Part shown: piece after piece, positions 984 through 9,658 of the stretch | How positions within the stretch are numbered: position 1 is the first letter of the stretch | Layout: each line of letters begins with the position of its first letter | Source: a virus | Virus record (IMG/VR): IMGVR_UViG_3300024346_000568 | Coordinates: 1 to 22,232 of that record | Direction: 5' to 3' (one strand) | Length of the DNA: 22,232 nucleotides | The notes under the pieces: model-generated | Database searches by the model: none | What the model was told of the DNA's origin: nothing | Seen by the model: the letters and a program-made list of their open reading frames with translations, nothing else | Made by a program: the position numbers and the translations under genes

Positions 984-1201
984 ACAACTTGAAACGGGTC
1001 AACAAGTACGGCAAGCCGCCGGCACGGACGATCATCCCCCAGGCCATAGGGCGGGGGCTTACGACTAAGGAAACGGCCTACGAATACGGCTATTCCCTTC
1101 GCGCTATCCAAGAAGCCGCCAACCGCATGAAGATGTCCTTCGTCTACGCCGGCACGGGGAGACCCCCTAAACACCTGCCTAACAGTAATGAACATCAATA
1201 A
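980..1201 (+). CDS. Small helix-turn-helix-like protein (paralogue of 556-738)
   Basis: This encodes 73 residues from ATG 980, which overlaps the previous stop as ATGA. Residues 9-52 match the paralogue at 556-738 in layout: NKYG, an Ile/Pro-containing helix, RGLTTKETAYEYGYSLRAIQ, then EAANRMKM. The GLT-x(8)-YGY-x(6/7)-EAA spacing is shared. After the HTH it has a short basic tail with TGRPPK. It is probably a DNA-binding protein. The pair may have arisen by tandem duplication followed by divergence, with the unknown gene 735-983 between them. Its last 14 bases overlap the start of the metallophosphoesterase gene. Confidence 0.62.
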   Translation: MNNLKRVNKYGKPPARTIIPQAIGRGLTTKETAYEYGYSLRAIQEAANRMKMSFVYAGTGRPPKHLPNSNEHQ

Positions 1202-1910
1202 GGGCTGGAAAAGGTTCATGGCGGTCGGCTGCTCCCACGGGATGTATGCCGACCCGAAGGCCATCGCTGGCGTCCTCAAGTTCAAGGATCGCTTCAAGCC
1301 CCACATGACGGTCCACCTAGGCGACTTCGTGGACATGACCCCCTTCATGTCGTCGGCGCGGGGCAAGGGCGACGCCGTGGAGCCGGACATCGGCGGGGGG
1401 CTGAAGTTCCTAGACCAGCTCCGCCCGAACGTCGTGCTGGCCGGCAACCATGAGGTTAGGCTCTGGCGCGAAGCCGCCTCGGACGACGAAGTCTATTCTG
1501 GCTACGCCCTCCGCCTGATCAACGATATCACCGAGCATTGTCGGAAGCGAAAAGCCCTCTTCGTTGAGTACACGGGCATCTGGCAGGCGTTCCAGTTGGC
1601 CAACTACAAGTTCACCCATGGCACCGTTTACGGGGAGAACGCACCCCGGGACATGGCCGAGATGTACGGCAACGTGATCTTCGCCCATACCCATAAGGTC
1701 GGCCGCATGACGGGTCGACGGGACGATACTCCGACGGGCATCAGCGTCGGCACCCTGACCCGCCGGGGGGCTATGGATTATGCCAATACGCGCAGGGCCA
1801 CGTTCGCCTGGTCGCAAGGCATGGTCTTTGGCTACTATAACGACGAGAAACTCATACCGTGGGTGCATGAGCAGCCCCACGATCAGGACGAGTGGATTCT
1901 GCCCATCTGA
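1188..1910 (+). CDS. Calcineurin-like metallophosphoesterase
   Basis: This encodes 240 residues with the metallophosphoesterase motifs in order: VGCSHGMYAD (residues 13-22), HLGDFVDM (43-50), AGNHEVRL (85-92, the GNHE metal/phosphate motif), FTHG (His144) and IFAHTHKVGR (164-173, the G/AHTH motif). Enzymes of this family hydrolyse phosphodiesters or phosphomonoesters using two metal ions. Phage members are often linked to nucleic-acid repair or nucleotide turnover. Motif I normally reads D-x-H-G; here the Asp is replaced by Cys15, which is unusual. The start is uncertain: ATG 1188 overlaps the previous gene by 14 bases, and an in-frame ATG at 1218 lies just before motif I. Cytoplasmic; no signal peptide. 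The substrate cannot be told from sequence. Confidence 0.85.
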   Translation: MNINKGWKRFMAVGCSHGMYADPKAIAGVLKFKDRFKPHMTVHLGDFVDMTPFMSSARGKGDAVEPDIGGGLKFLDQLRPNVVLAGNHEVRLWREAASDDEVYSGYALRLINDITEHCRKRKALFVEYTGIWQAFQLANYKFTHGTVYGENAPRDMAEMYGNVIFAHTHKVGRMTGRRDDTPTGISVGTLTRRGAMDYANTRRATFAWSQGMVFGYYNDEKLIPWVHEQPHDQDEWILPI

Positions 1911-2177: not shown

Positions 2178-2789
2178 ATGAAAATCCTAATTGCCTGTGA
2201 ATATTCCGGCACGGTGCGTGATGCCTTTATCAAGGCCGGTCACGACGCCATGTCATGCGATCTGCTCCCGACCGACGTTTCCGGTCCGCATTATCAGGGA
2301 AGCGTTTTTGATGTCATCGACAAGGGCTGGGACATGATGATTGGCCATCCTCCTTGCACATACCTGACCGTGACCGGGAACAAGTGGTTCAAGCCTGAAT
2401 TCAAGGACAGGTTCCCTGACCGTCATCAGCAGCGCGAAGACGCCATCGCTTTTTTCAAGGCGATGTTTGAATGCAACATTCCGCGCATCTGCTTGGAAAA
2501 CCCCGTCGGCATTCTTTCCAGCGTATACCGAAAGCCGACCCAGTACGTCCAGCCTTGGCAATTCGGAGACCCTCACTCCAAGAGGACCGGCCTTTGGTTA
2601 AAAGACCTGCCCGAGCTTGTTCCTACAAAGATTGTCGAGCCGCAGTTCTATACCTATAAGGACGGCCGCAAAGACCCCATCTGGCACGTTGAGTCCATGA
2701 GGATGAAGCCGCTTGAACGTATGAAGTACAGGTCGAAGACATTCCAAGGCATCGCCGACGCAATGGCCGCTCAATGGGGAACGCTCTGA
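2178..2789 (+). CDS. Phage cytosine-methyltransferase-like protein
   Basis: This encodes 203 residues from ATG 2178 (MKILIACEYSGTVRDAF), the usual N-terminus of this phage family. An ATG at 2112 would overlap the previous gene and add a poor leader. Visible motifs are the SAM-loop-like CEYSG (motif I), GHPPCTYL (the PC motif IV with the likely catalytic Cys) and CLENPVG (motif VI-like, ENP in place of ENV). A conserved tail follows: FGDPHSKRTGLWLKDLPELV and then KTFQGIADAMAAQWG. It is shorter than ordinary C5-methyltransferases and shows no clear target-recognition domain. Likely roles are cytosine methylation of phage DNA to avoid restriction, or a related base modification. It ends in a TGATG overlap with the primase-helicase gene. 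Confidence 0.75.
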   Translation: MKILIACEYSGTVRDAFIKAGHDAMSCDLLPTDVSGPHYQGSVFDVIDKGWDMMIGHPPCTYLTVTGNKWFKPEFKDRFPDRHQQREDAIAFFKAMFECNIPRICLENPVGILSSVYRKPTQYVQPWQFGDPHSKRTGLWLKDLPELVPTKIVEPQFYTYKDGRKDPIWHVESMRMKPLERMKYRSKTFQGIADAMAAQWGTL

Positions 2790-4777
2790 TGACCACCGAA
2801 GATCGTATTTCCGGGGCGAGAGCCTATCTCGCCAAATTGCCCCCCGCCGTCGCCGGCCAAGGCGGACACCCCGCCACCTACCGTGCAGCCAGCATCCTCG
2901 CCAACGGGTTCGACCTTCCGTGGTCGGACGCCTGGGCTTTGTTGCAGGAGTTCAACGTCCGTTGCTCGCCCCCGTGGAGCGAGAAAGACCTGCGTCACAA
3001 ATTGAACGATGCCTACGTCAAGCCGCACGAACGCCAGAAGGGCTGGCTTGTCGCCGGCAGGGAGCGTAGGGTCGGCGCGAACGGTCGCTTCGTCTTCGAT
3101 CCCACCCGGGTCGCCGAGCTGGCCGACGCCCAGACGCCGTTCACGACGGCCGACGTGCTGCTGAACTGCTTCACGAACGAGGACGTCATCTGCATCACGA
3201 ACGAGGCCGGCCAGACCGAAGACGGCAAGTGGTTCCCGGCGTCCAAGGGTCTGTTCCTGACCCGCGCCGAATGGATCACCAAGTTCTTCGGCCCCGGTGC
3301 CGTAGGTGCCGGCAAGTTCGCCGCCTCGGAGTCCGGGGCTTGGATTCGGATTAACCCCTTCACCCCTGACGACTTCACGGGTACGGACGGTGCGGTGTCC
3401 GCCTACCGCCATGTGCTGGTCGAGTTCGACAAGAAGCCGAAGGACGAACAGGTGGCCATCTTCCAGCAGTCGAACCTGCCCATCAGCCTGCTCGTCGACT
3501 CGGGCGGCAAGTCTGTCCACGCCTGGGTGCGGGTCGACGCCGAGACCAAGGAGCAATGGGAGGAACGACGTAATACGGTGTATGACTATCTGGCCGACCA
3601 TGAGCCTGACCCGCAGAACAAGAACCCTTCCCGCTGGAGCCGGCTGGGGGGAGTCCTGCGCGGCGAGAACGAACAGAAGATCGTGGCGTTCAAGGTCGGG
3701 GCTTCCGACTGGGACGAGTTCATGGTCTGGCGGGAAGGTCAGGACTTCCCCGAGGAGGTCACGACCGACGTCCTTGAGAACTACGACGTCCTGAACGACC
3801 CGAACACGGTGATCGGTCATGGACGCTGGTTGCAGAAGGGCGGCTCCCTGCTCATCACCGCGCAGTCCGGCATCGGAAAGTCTTCCTTCGCCATGCAGAT
3901 GGCCATGTCATGGGCTTGCGGACGGGAACTCTTCGGCATCCCAGCGAAGCATCCGCTGAAGATGGGCGTCCTCCAGGCGGAGGGCGACGTCGGCGACATG
4001 GCCCAGTCCTTTCAAGGCGTCATGTCGGGCATGAGGCTGAACAACGACGAGAAGGCCATGGTCAGGCAGAACCTGCACTTCTTCAACGAATCGTCCAAGC
4101 GCGGAAACGATATTATCCAGCTCGCCCGTAAGATTATCGTCCGGCACAAACTCGACGTAATCGTGCTGGACCCGTTGATGGCTTACATCGGCGGCAACAT
4201 CAACGACAACGTCGACGTCACGAACTTCTGCCGTGGGCTGCTGGAGCCGATGCTCAAGGAGACGGGGTGCATCGCCATCCTGATCCACCACGAAGGCAAG
4301 CCCAAGGCCAAGGAGGTCACAGACGGCCAGACCTTCTCAGATATTATGTATAGCGGTACGGGGGGAGCGGAACTTGTGAACTATGTCCGTGCCGTGCTGA
4401 ACATCCGCCGGGAGTCCAAGGACCAGCCGGTGTTCTCCTTCATGCTGTCGAAGCGTGGCAAGGAGGCCGGGATGCGTACCCCGGACGGCAAGCCGACGCT
4501 GACCCTGAAACTGAAACACGCCGACGATCGGGTCTTCTGGGAGGTCGCCCCCTTGGCCGGCGGTTTCGAGTTGCTCAAGGTCGGCCAGCAGTTCCGGCAC
4601 TTTGAGTCTAAGCCCAAGGTCAGCCGGGGGGCTTTGATTGAGGAACTGATCTCCGACCACAAGTTGAACCGAGACCAGGCGGAGTCGCTTATCAAGGCCA
4701 TGGTGACCAACGGCATCATGGAGCCTCGGAAGGTCGGCGCGGCCCTGTACTATCAAGGAACCAAATACGAAGCATAA
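2789..4777 (+). CDS. Primase-helicase: PriCT-like, AEP-like primase and RecA-like ATPase
   Basis: This encodes 662 residues from ATG 2789, which overlaps the methyltransferase stop (TGATG) and has GGGGA upstream; an ATG at 2774 would add five residues. Residues about 8-80 (VAGQGGHPATYRAASILANG to NVRCSPPWSEKDLRHKL) match the PriCT-type domain of phage/plasmid primases. Residues about 205-300 look like an archaeo-eukaryotic primase core: HVLVEFDK, then DSGGKSVHAWV (S-x-H), then PSRWSRLGGVLR. A hexameric RecA-fold helicase follows, with Walker A AQSGIGKSS (358-366), Walker B DVIVLD (456-461) and a sensor-like stretch around SGTGGAELVNYVRAVL. The C-terminal 70 residues look like a winged helix. 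It probably unwinds DNA and primes phage replication. The order, with PriCT first, is notable. Confidence 0.85.
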   Translation: MTTEDRISGARAYLAKLPPAVAGQGGHPATYRAASILANGFDLPWSDAWALLQEFNVRCSPPWSEKDLRHKLNDAYVKPHERQKGWLVAGRERRVGANGRFVFDPTRVAELADAQTPFTTADVLLNCFTNEDVICITNEAGQTEDGKWFPASKGLFLTRAEWITKFFGPGAVGAGKFAASESGAWIRINPFTPDDFTGTDGAVSAYRHVLVEFDKKPKDEQVAIFQQSNLPISLLVDSGGKSVHAWVRVDAETKEQWEERRNTVYDYLADHEPDPQNKNPSRWSRLGGVLRGENEQKIVAFKVGASDWDEFMVWREGQDFPEEVTTDVLENYDVLNDPNTVIGHGRWLQKGGSLLITAQSGIGKSSFAMQMAMSWACGRELFGIPAKHPLKMGVLQAEGDVGDMAQSFQGVMSGMRLNNDEKAMVRQNLHFFNESSKRGNDIIQLARKIIVRHKLDVIVLDPLMAYIGGNINDNVDVTNFCRGLLEPMLKETGCIAILIHHEGKPKAKEVTDGQTFSDIMYSGTGGAELVNYVRAVLNIRRESKDQPVFSFMLSKRGKEAGMRTPDGKPTLTLKLKHADDRVFWEVAPLAGGFELLKVGQQFRHFESKPKVSRGALIEELISDHKLNRDQAESLIKAMVTNGIMEPRKVGAALYYQGTKYEA

Positions 4778-5619
4778 TGGAACAGCAAATTATGGACTTC
4801 ACGAAGGCGGAGCCATACTCCTGTCCTTTGTTTGAAATCGACCCAGCCAAGATTTGGGTCGAGCAGGTCGACTCCGCAAAGTTGGCCTTCTATCAAAAGC
4901 AGATGAGCAAGGCAGTCTGGCGTCCGGCCCCAGGCCGTAAGTTGGGCTTCTTGGTCAAGCACGACGAGACGCTGATTGGTCTAATCTTTCTTGCCTCTCC
5001 AGTCATCAATCTGACCGAGCGGGACAAGCGTCTCAATATGCCTAAAGACCCGAAGGAGAAGGGTAAGGCTTTGCGATCCGTCATGGACATCAGCGTCTGC
5101 GTTTCAGCCCAGCCGCTTGGGTGGCATTATAACCTTGGTAAACTCTGTGCGATGCTGGCTCCGACACTTGGGGACTTTTTCGAGCAACGCTACCATGAGA
5201 AACTGGAACACCTTGTGACCACATCTCTCTGGGGTAGGGGTACGCAGTACAATCGAGTTTTCGAGTTTCTTGGCTATACCAAGGGTCACGGTCACGAACA
5301 CATCTCGGACGAGAAGTACCACGCCATGATGCAATGGCTTCGGGACAATGGGCATGAGGTTCCGTCCTGCAAGTTCGGTGCCGGCAGCAATCCGCGCATG
5401 AGACGCATCTCGGCTTATCGAAAGGCAAGCGGGGATAAGACGGTGACGCTGGTACACGGCAATAAGCGTGGCATCTATTATCACCCGGCTACCCCCCCCC
5501 CTAATCGCATGGACGTAATCCTGAACTGGCACAAGCGGTGGGGGTTGCCCCGCTACCTGCGAACCAAGGATACCCCGCCGCCGTACACCAACGGCCTAGC
5601 ATCCAAGGAAGAGGCGTAA
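4777..5619 (+). CDS. DUF4338 (DruA-related) protein
   Basis: This encodes 280 residues from ATG 4777, overlapping the primase-helicase stop (TAATG). The core matches my recollection of DUF4338, the family that includes DruA of Druantia anti-phage systems: VMDISVCVSAQPLGWHYNLG, then GKLCAMLAP, LVTTSLWGRGTQYNRVFEFL, GYTKGHGHEHISDEKYHAM, NPRMRRISAYRKASG, and LVHGNKRGIYYHP near the end. The fold may be related to GNAT-like Mom proteins that modify DNA bases; that link is inference. It is the last gene of the early operon, close to a terminator. A run of ten C (5492-5501) lies in the coding sequence near the 3' end and could slip. Possible roles are superinfection exclusion, inter-phage defence or DNA modification. 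The biochemical activity is unknown. Confidence 0.72.
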   Translation: MEQQIMDFTKAEPYSCPLFEIDPAKIWVEQVDSAKLAFYQKQMSKAVWRPAPGRKLGFLVKHDETLIGLIFLASPVINLTERDKRLNMPKDPKEKGKALRSVMDISVCVSAQPLGWHYNLGKLCAMLAPTLGDFFEQRYHEKLEHLVTTSLWGRGTQYNRVFEFLGYTKGHGHEHISDEKYHAMMQWLRDNGHEVPSCKFGAGSNPRMRRISAYRKASGDKTVTLVHGNKRGIYYHPATPPPNRMDVILNWHKRWGLPRYLRTKDTPPPYTNGLASKEEA

Positions 5620-7546: not shown

Positions 7547-9658
7547 TTAATTAAAATACTTGGTAAGCGATTGAAGGAATGATGCCCCATTTGAGACATA
7601 CAAAGTTCGTCCTAAACTTCCGTCAGTAATGTCGCCATTCCAAATAATGTAACCGGGGTTTTCATTGTTATTCAGTCCGAACGTATAATTACCGTCCGTA
7701 AGATAAAATCCATTTGAGTAAGATCGGATTGCCGCATCCGGCCCCGTATGATATACAGTAGTCTGATTGTAAATAGAATCGTAACTCCAAGAAGTAATGT
7801 AGTTAAAGTAATTAAAAATAAACCAAGTCTTGGCTAGGTTTGTATTATCTGGAATTGAACCCGGAAAAGCAGCCGCCGTGGTCTGCGTCGTGCCGTCTCC
7901 GAACATAATCCCATTAGTGTCCACCTTCAGCGCGGCGGTCGCATCCGGGGCGACGCCCACGCCGACCTTGCCGTTCGCATCGACGACGAAGCGGGTAGCG
8001 TCCGGGGTCGTGCTGTCCTCTACCTCGATGGCATTTCCAGTTCCCTTCTGCGTCACGCGCAGGGCGGCAAGAGTATTGTTCGTCGTGTCGATGGTCTGCG
8101 GAGCGTTAAAGACGTTACCGTTGCTTAGGGCGGCAAGAACTTTCCATGCTCCCGTGCCGTCACGGAAATTGAGGTTAGCACCGCCGGTTGCAATCCAAAG
8201 GTCGCCAGCGGTTGTCGAGGCCGTGCTGGTTCCACCGATGCCGACGTTGAGGCCGGCAACGCCAGAGACTGGGGTGAAGTTCGCCTTGCCCGTGAAGGTC
8301 GCGCCCGAGAGGTTCGCCTTGGCGTTGAGGGCGGACTGGAGGTCTGTCTGCGAGCTGAGAGTCCCGGTGATGCCCCCCCAGACCGCACCGCCGGCAGCAG
8401 CCGAGTTCTTCCAAAGGCCGGAGACCGAGTCGTAGGACAAGACCTGACCGTTGGTCGGAGTCGTGATCAGGACGTCATGGAGTTCGTCGAGTTCGTAGCC
8501 GTTCTGGACGGCCACCAGAATCGTGCCGAGCGTCGGATGCGAGCGGATGCAGATGCCGACGTAGACCAGATGCTGCGGGGCGACCGGCTTCGTGGTCGTC
8601 CAGGCACCCGGGGTCGTCGGGGACAGGTAAAGTTGGACGCCTTCCGTAAGGGCGGAGGTGTTGATGTTCTCCAGCACACCGCGCACGATGACGTAGCCCT
8701 GACCGTTGTTGGCAATCGACGTCTTGACGAAGCCCATGGTCTGGGCGGAGTTGGCGTCGTTGTTAGCCTGGGCGAGCGAGATAAGGGGCAGGTTGCCCGT
8801 CGCTCCGCTGATGTAGACGATGGAGCCGGCGGGAATCGTCGCACCGCTCTGGTTGCGGACGAGGACTTCAAGGTTGCGAGCGTTGGCCGTGCCGGCGGCG
8901 AGTTCCTGCTGGACGAAGGCCGTGGTAGCCAACTGGGTCGACGACGTCAGGGTCGGCTGGGTAACGCCGATGGTACCCGTGGGCAAGCTCGGGGTGCCGG
9001 TGAAGACCTGCGAGTTGATCAGCGCGTAGGGCAGCAGGACGGACGAATTGAACGCCGTGGTCTGAGACGTCGAGTCGGGGAAGGTGATTGAACCGTTCTG
9101 AAGGACAAGACCCTGAGTCATGTCCAAGTAGTTCGTCAGGATGCCGTCGCCGATGAAGACTTGATTCTGAAGGAAGCCGGCGTAGCCCCCAGTGGCGATG
9201 GAGATAGAGTCGAAGTTGGGGTTAGGGCTGATGCTGACAGTCTGGGTGCCAGAGTCGTAGGCCAGCGGCGCGGTGGCTGCGACGACGCCTGGGGTTCCGG
9301 GGACGCCCTGCGGACCTTGGGGGCCGATGTCGCCTTGGTCTCCCTTATCGCCCTGCGGACCTTGGTCGCCCTGATCTCCCTTGTCGCCCTTCGGGCCTTG
9401 GTCGCCTTGGATACCCTGAATACCTTGGATGCCTTGGATACCTTGGTCACCCTTATCTCCCTTGTCACCTTGGTCACCCTTGACGCCCTGAATACCTTGG
9501 ATGCCCTGAATACCCTGCGGACCCTGATCACCTTGGTCACCCTTCGGGCCTTGGATGCCCTGCGGACCTTGCGGACCTTGGGGGCCAGTCGGGCCGGCGG
9601 GGCCAGCGAACTGGACCTCAAAGGCGGCTTGGTCGTTGATGCTGATTGTGAAGGCCAT
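7547..9658 (-). CDS. Collagen-like tail fibre
   Basis: This encodes 703 residues from ATG 9658, overlapping the previous stop (TGATG). Residues 19-126 are an unbroken collagen-type run of 36 Gly-X-Y triplets rich in Q, D, K, I and P. The run is expected to form a trimeric triple-helical shaft. Before it lies a short N-terminal attachment part. After it come fibre-type sequences, including the tail-fibre signature TQLATTAFV and two copies of a phage-fibre motif, ITFPDSTSQTTAF (191-203) and IMFGDGTTQTTAA (about 584-596). The last 105 residues are Asn/Tyr/Phe-rich and encoded by AT-rich DNA (7547 to about 7860), unlike the rest. That part is probably the receptor-binding tip, recently exchanged. 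No intramolecular-chaperone motif is recognised. Confidence 0.88.
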   Translation of the reverse strand: MAFTISINDQAAFEVQFAGPAGPTGPQGPQGPQGIQGPKGDQGDQGPQGIQGIQGIQGVKGDQGDKGDKGDQGIQGIQGIQGIQGDQGPKGDKGDQGDQGPQGDKGDQGDIGPQGPQGVPGTPGVVAATAPLAYDSGTQTVSISPNPNFDSISIATGGYAGFLQNQVFIGDGILTNYLDMTQGLVLQNGSITFPDSTSQTTAFNSSVLLPYALINSQVFTGTPSLPTGTIGVTQPTLTSSTQLATTAFVQQELAAGTANARNLEVLVRNQSGATIPAGSIVYISGATGNLPLISLAQANNDANSAQTMGFVKTSIANNGQGYVIVRGVLENINTSALTEGVQLYLSPTTPGAWTTTKPVAPQHLVYVGICIRSHPTLGTILVAVQNGYELDELHDVLITTPTNGQVLSYDSVSGLWKNSAAAGGAVWGGITGTLSSQTDLQSALNAKANLSGATFTGKANFTPVSGVAGLNVGIGGTSTASTTAGDLWIATGGANLNFRDGTGAWKVLAALSNGNVFNAPQTIDTTNNTLAALRVTQKGTGNAIEVEDSTTPDATRFVVDANGKVGVGVAPDATAALKVDTNGIMFGDGTTQTTAAAFPGSIPDNTNLAKTWFIFNYFNYITSWSYDSIYNQTTVYHTGPDAAIRSYSNGFYLTDGNYTFGLNNNENPGYIIWNGDITDGSLGRTLYVSNGASFLQSLTKYFN
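9281..9604 (-). repeat. Collagen Gly-X-Y coding repeat
   Basis: This stretch encodes 36 consecutive Gly-X-Y triplets inside the fibre gene. At DNA level it is a degenerate 9-nt-type repeat (units such as ACCTTGGAT and ACCCTGAAT on the plus strand), so it is prone to expansion or contraction by recombination. Confidence 0.9.

Follow-up and report, generated by a model that had tools for sequence, protein, structure and literature searches.

A DUF4338/DruA-family gene in a phage replication operon occupies a slot held by Mom or methyltransferase-like genes in related phages

We analysed a DUF4338 gene in a stretch of 22,232 bases, called the window throughout, which is an IMG/VR virus record and a genome fragment. 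The rightward early operon of the window runs from a metallophosphoesterase gene through a C5-methyltransferase-like gene and a primase-helicase gene to the DUF4338 gene (Table 1). As the original prediction had stated, the DUF4338 gene is the last in this replication and early operon, and convergent genes lie on its 3' side. Its ATG overlaps the stop codon of the primase-helicase gene (..gcatAATGg), and the 280-codon reading frame is intact, without an internal stop. The minus strand holds the terminase, portal and head-protease genes, as well as a gene for a probable tail fibre (7547-9658), in which a long Gly-X-Y repeat of collagen type lies close to the N-terminus. Searches of the window for Rfam families and tRNA genes had no hits. 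Comparison of the DUF4338 gene with copies that are 94% and 89% identical gave dN/dS values of 0.034 and 0.033, respectively. This strong purifying selection shows that the open reading frame is a functional gene and did not arise by chance.

Table 1. Genes of the rightward early operon in the window, with the evidence for each assignment.
Feature	Coordinates	Strand	Evidence
Metallophosphoesterase	1188..1910	+	PF00149 E 1.4e-6; phrog_221 E 1e-12
C5-methyltransferase-like protein, phrog_757	2178..2789	+	phrog_757 'DNA methyltransferase' E 6e-65
Primase-helicase	2774..4777	+	phrog_2597 DNA primase E 7e-57, AAA_25 E 9e-24
DUF4338/DruA-domain protein, 280 aa, predicted GNAT fold	4777..5619	+	PF14236, PADLOC DruA1, AlphaFold2, dN/dS

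The DUF4338/DruA identity of the gene product was borne out by profile searches. PF14236 (DruA, formerly DUF4338) matched residues 49-238 with 60.3 bits and an E value of 2.2e-16, above the Pfam gathering cut-off of 27 bits, and the PADLOC DruA1 model matched with an E value of 5.6e-22; an NCBIfam profile search of the protein gave no match. The original prediction had also held that no other Druantia gene is present, and indeed none (druB-E, including the DruE helicase) was found among the ORFs of the 22,232-base fragment.

The GNAT fold has previously been ascribed to DUF4338 in its form as a domain fused to DndF (PMC10853773). The AlphaFold2 model of the window protein, based on a 43-sequence alignment, had a mean pLDDT of 83 and a predicted GNAT fold, and hundreds of GNAT chains matched it at Z 8-11 in VIA. 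As regards structural likeness to Mom, phage Mu Mom (8bv8; Z 10.9, 165 residues) ranked first among solved structures, but its margin of 0.3 over an ordinary GNAT (1y9k; Z 10.6, 135 residues) amounts to a tie. A neighbouring Mom, modelled as a positive control, matched 8bv8 at Z 17.4. In BFVD, the window model matched a Salmonella phage Mom (E 2.7e-4). Sequence searches of the PDB with DUF4338, by phmmer and by profile, returned nothing meaningful. BFVD also contained uncharacterised structural relatives from giant viruses (A0A3G4ZXG3, A0A5K0UAJ3 and A0A3G4ZRA1), with E values of 2e-16 for Faunusvirus, 5e-11 for Yasminevirus and 1e-7 for Dasosvirus.

We then asked which genes follow the primase-helicase gene in related phages. 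The survey comprised the window and 80 relatives of its primase-helicase, from which 10 contigs ending at this point were removed, leaving 71 loci. The gene abutting the primase stop codon was Mom in 17 of the 71, DUF4338 in four and C5-methyltransferase-like in one, and no co-directional gene abutted it in the other 49; since the loci are related and are in part near-copies, this is a pattern within one phage clade and not a tally of independent events. The junctions are base-exact equivalents, reading gcaTAATGG for DUF4338, gcATGAGC for Mom and gaATGAAAG for the methyltransferase. All characterised occupants of the slot after the primase gene are DNA modifiers. A second exchange slot lies upstream (2178-2789 in the window), with the metallophosphoesterase gene as its left border, and relatives hold either a full C5 methyltransferase gene or a Mom gene there.

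Near-identical phages of the window clade differ mainly in their modification genes. L006, which is nearly the same phage as that of the window (96% identity in the primase and 97% in DUF4338), carries a Mom gene (PF25680, E 4e-35) between the methyltransferase and primase genes. L007, a near-copy of the window phage, has a C5 methyltransferase gene (PF00145, E 1e-46) upstream of the primase gene, and in L001 a Mom gene (E 3e-43) lies immediately 3' of DUF4338. The presence of Mom together with DUF4338 in L001 and L006 shows that the two are not simple alternatives. Mom is also found three genes downstream of DUF4338 in L023, whose DUF4338 protein is 60% identical to that of the window, and one or two Mom genes lie upstream of DUF4338 in L025, L028, L029 and L032.

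Mom-like genes were detected in 268 of 50,697 phage records, at the sensitivity of that search. In an unselected survey, DUF4338 was found within the flanks of none of 80 other Mom loci, which rules out a general partnership of Mom and DUF4338 and makes the Mom link specific to the clade. Most T4-like carriers of DUF4338 have no Mom gene nearby. The co-occurrence of Mom and DUF4338 in 53 of 80 loci was set aside as a measure of enrichment, because the loci are near-copies and a DUF4338 gene next to the query Mom was the reason for its choice.

The association of DUF4338 with replication genes is not confined to the window clade. A sequence search of phage records recovered 23 distantly related copies from cyanophages and pelagiphages, with S-PRM1 among the cyanophage matches, and a profile-pattern scan of IMG/VR yielded at least 556 DUF4338 relatives among the 600 pattern matches listed. 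L008-L013, taken as relatives in the first scan, proved false, as all that they have in common is the peptide MQWLRDNGH. Across 94 loci, the neighbours of DUF4338 were replication, recombination and early genes, with peptide deformylase at most three genes upstream in 54, gp46 nearby in 48 and gp47 in 34. The distant copies sit within replication and recombination clusters, at gp44/gp62/regA in T4-like cyanophages, between gp43 and uvsX in HTVC008M, and with gp46/gp47. Nearly the sole stretch that L002 and L003 have in common with the window is 4813-5619, which ends exactly at the stop codon of DUF4338 (L003 has one extra match of 103 bases), showing that DUF4338 moves by itself. A tandem pair of DUF4338 genes was observed in L031 (4527-6783).

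To place the phage proteins within the family, profiles were compared. The phage-type and transposon-type DUF4338 profiles matched each other (prob 97.9, E 3e-13), and the transposon-type profile matched that of Mom (prob 94.9, E 4.7e-8, 170 columns, score 60). Against this score of 60, 60 column shuffles reached at most 20.5 and the reversed profile 16.8, and a GNAT control set of 9-11 proteins, some of them possibly mispicked ORFs, gave no signal with transposon-type DUF4338. Proteins matched by the full-length DruA model (L454-L456) and DruA-DndF fusions scored 60-65 bits with the phage HMM and 3-16 bits with the transposon-type HMM, and are the best sequence match to the window protein among the cellular branches tested. 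Together, the bit scores and profile matches distinguish at least three branches, in which the DruA/DndF type and the compact phage type are close to each other and the transposon type is nearer to Mom. Two direct hhalign comparisons between phage DUF4338 and Mom failed (window-type DUF4338 against 48 Moms, 1.2%), and the PF25680 profile found no match in the window protein. The Mom link thus rests on the transposon-type branch, through which the DUF4338 family is, judged by its profiles, homologous to Mom. In a DUF4338 tree, which the original prediction had proposed as a check, a branch with 100/100 support set the long phage copies apart; the rows of this tree were collected with search patterns and left out Druantia-type DruA.

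The transposon-type proteins, although of the same Pfam family, differ from the window protein in carrying the KNxxS and GxxYxAxNW motifs of Mom and in travelling in insertion sequences. In L400 (5190-7908) and its copies L401-L418, a 2.7-kb unit combines an apparent IS66-type transposase, judged by eye, with a DUF4338 gene; these units are 93-100% identical and come from one Candidatus Accumulibacter genome with 83 PF14236 matches. L263 (3899-5233) encodes an ISAs1-type transposase in which an N-terminal DUF4338 domain is fused to DDE_Tnp_1. In L464 (8304-12146) and L463 (3-3131), a DruA-type DUF4338 is fused to a C-terminal P-loop NTPase, and the fusion gene of L464 is followed by genes for 454-aa and 1583-aa proteins; this is probably the published DndF fusion.

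We further compared the active-site residues of Mom with those of DUF4338. The residue mutated in 8bv8 (S124A) lies in KNxxS, as its Ala occupies a position that is Ser in 47 of 48 Moms, and the 8bv8 sequence thereby rules out the serine of SYAD as the counterpart of Mom Ser124. Transposon-type DUF4338 keeps the KNxxS serine in 38 of 41 copies and has also retained GxxYxAxNW. Mom Ser124 aligns, by chained alignments, with Gly121 in the window protein, a residue that is invariant in 43 of 43 phage copies and sits within a QPxG....GK motif; the search patterns themselves account in part for the invariance at Q112, P113 and G115 in alignment A2. Mom His25 aligns with Ser44, which is Ser in 36 and His in 7 of the 43 phage copies. 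The HY motif of Mom is replaced in most phage copies, and the GxxYQAxN motif, which search patterns had partly built into alignment A7, is absent. Conserved in window-type proteins are K122, Y139, T148, T149, S150, Y158 and R231. By these residues the window protein would not be classed as a Mom, and as it does not have the Mom catalytic serine, it would use a different residue set if it modifies DNA. The Mom-like DNA modification offered by the original prediction has gained independent support: slot exchange with Mom and methyltransferase genes, Mom neighbours, the predicted GNAT fold and homology through the transposon-type branch speak for it. The window protein has no direct sequence match to Mom, the methylcarbamoylase of phage Mu, and has Gly at the position of Ser124.

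Since DUF4338 stands in the slot of known DNA-modifying genes in the closest relatives, the product may well be an enzyme that puts a chemical mark on the DNA of the phage itself. We tentatively favour, at somewhat less than an even chance, a GNAT-fold DNA-modifying enzyme that protects phage DNA. Such a transferase would attach a small group of the acyl type to bases in the DNA of its own phage during replication, and the modified DNA would be shielded from host restriction. It would do the same job as Mom or the methyltransferase in sister phages, without the catalytic serine of Mom. We infer that DNA is the substrate, an acyl-CoA-like compound the donor and escape from restriction the benefit.

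The main rival, which we consider unlikely, is that the protein is a GNAT acyltransferase acting on proteins (or on tRNA or other RNA) in host takeover or in the regulation of replication proteins. In the fold comparison, the scores of ordinary GNATs that act on proteins or small molecules are about equal to that of Mom, and T4-like phages carry DUF4338 amid their clamp-loader and polymerase genes. A precedent is Rac, an acetyltransferase of phiKMV-like phages (PMC7824862). However, an acyltransferase of this kind leaves unexplained both the slot exchange with Mom and methyltransferase genes and the profile homology between DUF4338 and Mom.

A role in defence or superinfection exclusion, in which the window protein, as a compact DruA, would recognise other phages or attack them in the way presumed for Druantia, appears less probable still. 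It would fit the higher scores of Druantia-model DruA and DruA-DndF fusions with the phage profile than with the transposon-type profile, and the movement of DUF4338 as a single unit. The window protein and the DruA/DndF type belong to the same PF14236 family and have the motifs GGKL(V/L)ALL, TTSLYG and QY in common. However, the window protein has 280 aa, compared with about 700-1280 aa for the DruA/DndF type, and lacks the ~150-aa insert that L454-L456 have between the domain halves. Unlike in Druantia type I and DndF systems, no druB-E or dndFGH partner accompanies the gene, and neither the window nor its near relatives hold a helicase or nuclease partner for it; its place is next to modification genes, within a replication operon. 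The name DruA has no predictive value, as the open literature searched gives no role for DruA itself. For superinfection exclusion and for the blocking of a rival's defence, both of which had been suggested at the outset, we found nothing in favour here except the family name. A counter-defence decoy, in which a DruA mimic poisons host Druantia or DndF-type systems, seems the least credible explanation: the shortened DruA-like domain is strictly conserved and host systems do contain DruA domains, including DruA-DndF fusions, but the gene is very widespread in phages (at least 556 relatives among the 600 IMG/VR pattern matches listed), the DruA model matched in 6 of 299 Pseudomonadota genomes, and the conservation of a GNAT core points to catalysis.

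DruA-like proteins have been reported by structure in Synechococcus phages (PMC12774648), so that earlier publications cover DruA-like proteins of phages as well as the GNAT assignment; the contextual slot evidence is new here. The Synechococcus proteins belong to the same phage branch as the window protein, but are 350-430 aa long and are encoded inside the replication cluster of T4-like phages; the accessible part of that report gives no function for them and no relation to a Mom or methyltransferase slot. In the open literature we found no paper linking DUF4338 or DruA with Mom, an absence that is weak evidence, and no role for DruA.

A wider reading, of which we are doubtful, treats DUF4338/DruA and Mom as one family of GNAT-fold DNA modifiers, with an undescribed base modification made by the phage branch and with DruA as the DNA-marking subunit of Druantia type I. 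The active site would then have changed, with the invariant GK and TTSL motifs replacing the serine of Mom, and DruA in type I may take the place of DruM in type II. According to Doron et al. in 2018, DruM is reportedly a cytosine methylase, and Druantia type I is said to have DruA instead. Druantia type II requires DruM and DruG (PMC8565338). The window gene offers a route to testing what DruA does, in that, if phage relatives replace Mom or methyltransferases in the slot, the simplest test of DruA is nucleoside analysis of DNA. If DNA modification by DUF4338 is true, the DNA-modifying enzymes known today would gain a large and widely distributed phage family (at least 556 IMG/VR contigs in one scan), and one protein family would take in a transposon passenger gene, a defence protein and an anti-restriction enzyme of phages.

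Other arrangements of Mom and DUF4338 genes were also seen. In L029 (4190-8122), two Mom genes, DUF4338 and a glycosyltransferase-like gene follow one another on one strand, suggesting a compound DNA-modification cluster. In L133 (5265-6801), a short DUF4338 gene (254-aa open frame, PF14236 E 7e-23), which is nearer to the transposon type in the tree, lies directly upstream of Mom, and similar short copies lie upstream of Mom in L140 and L152.
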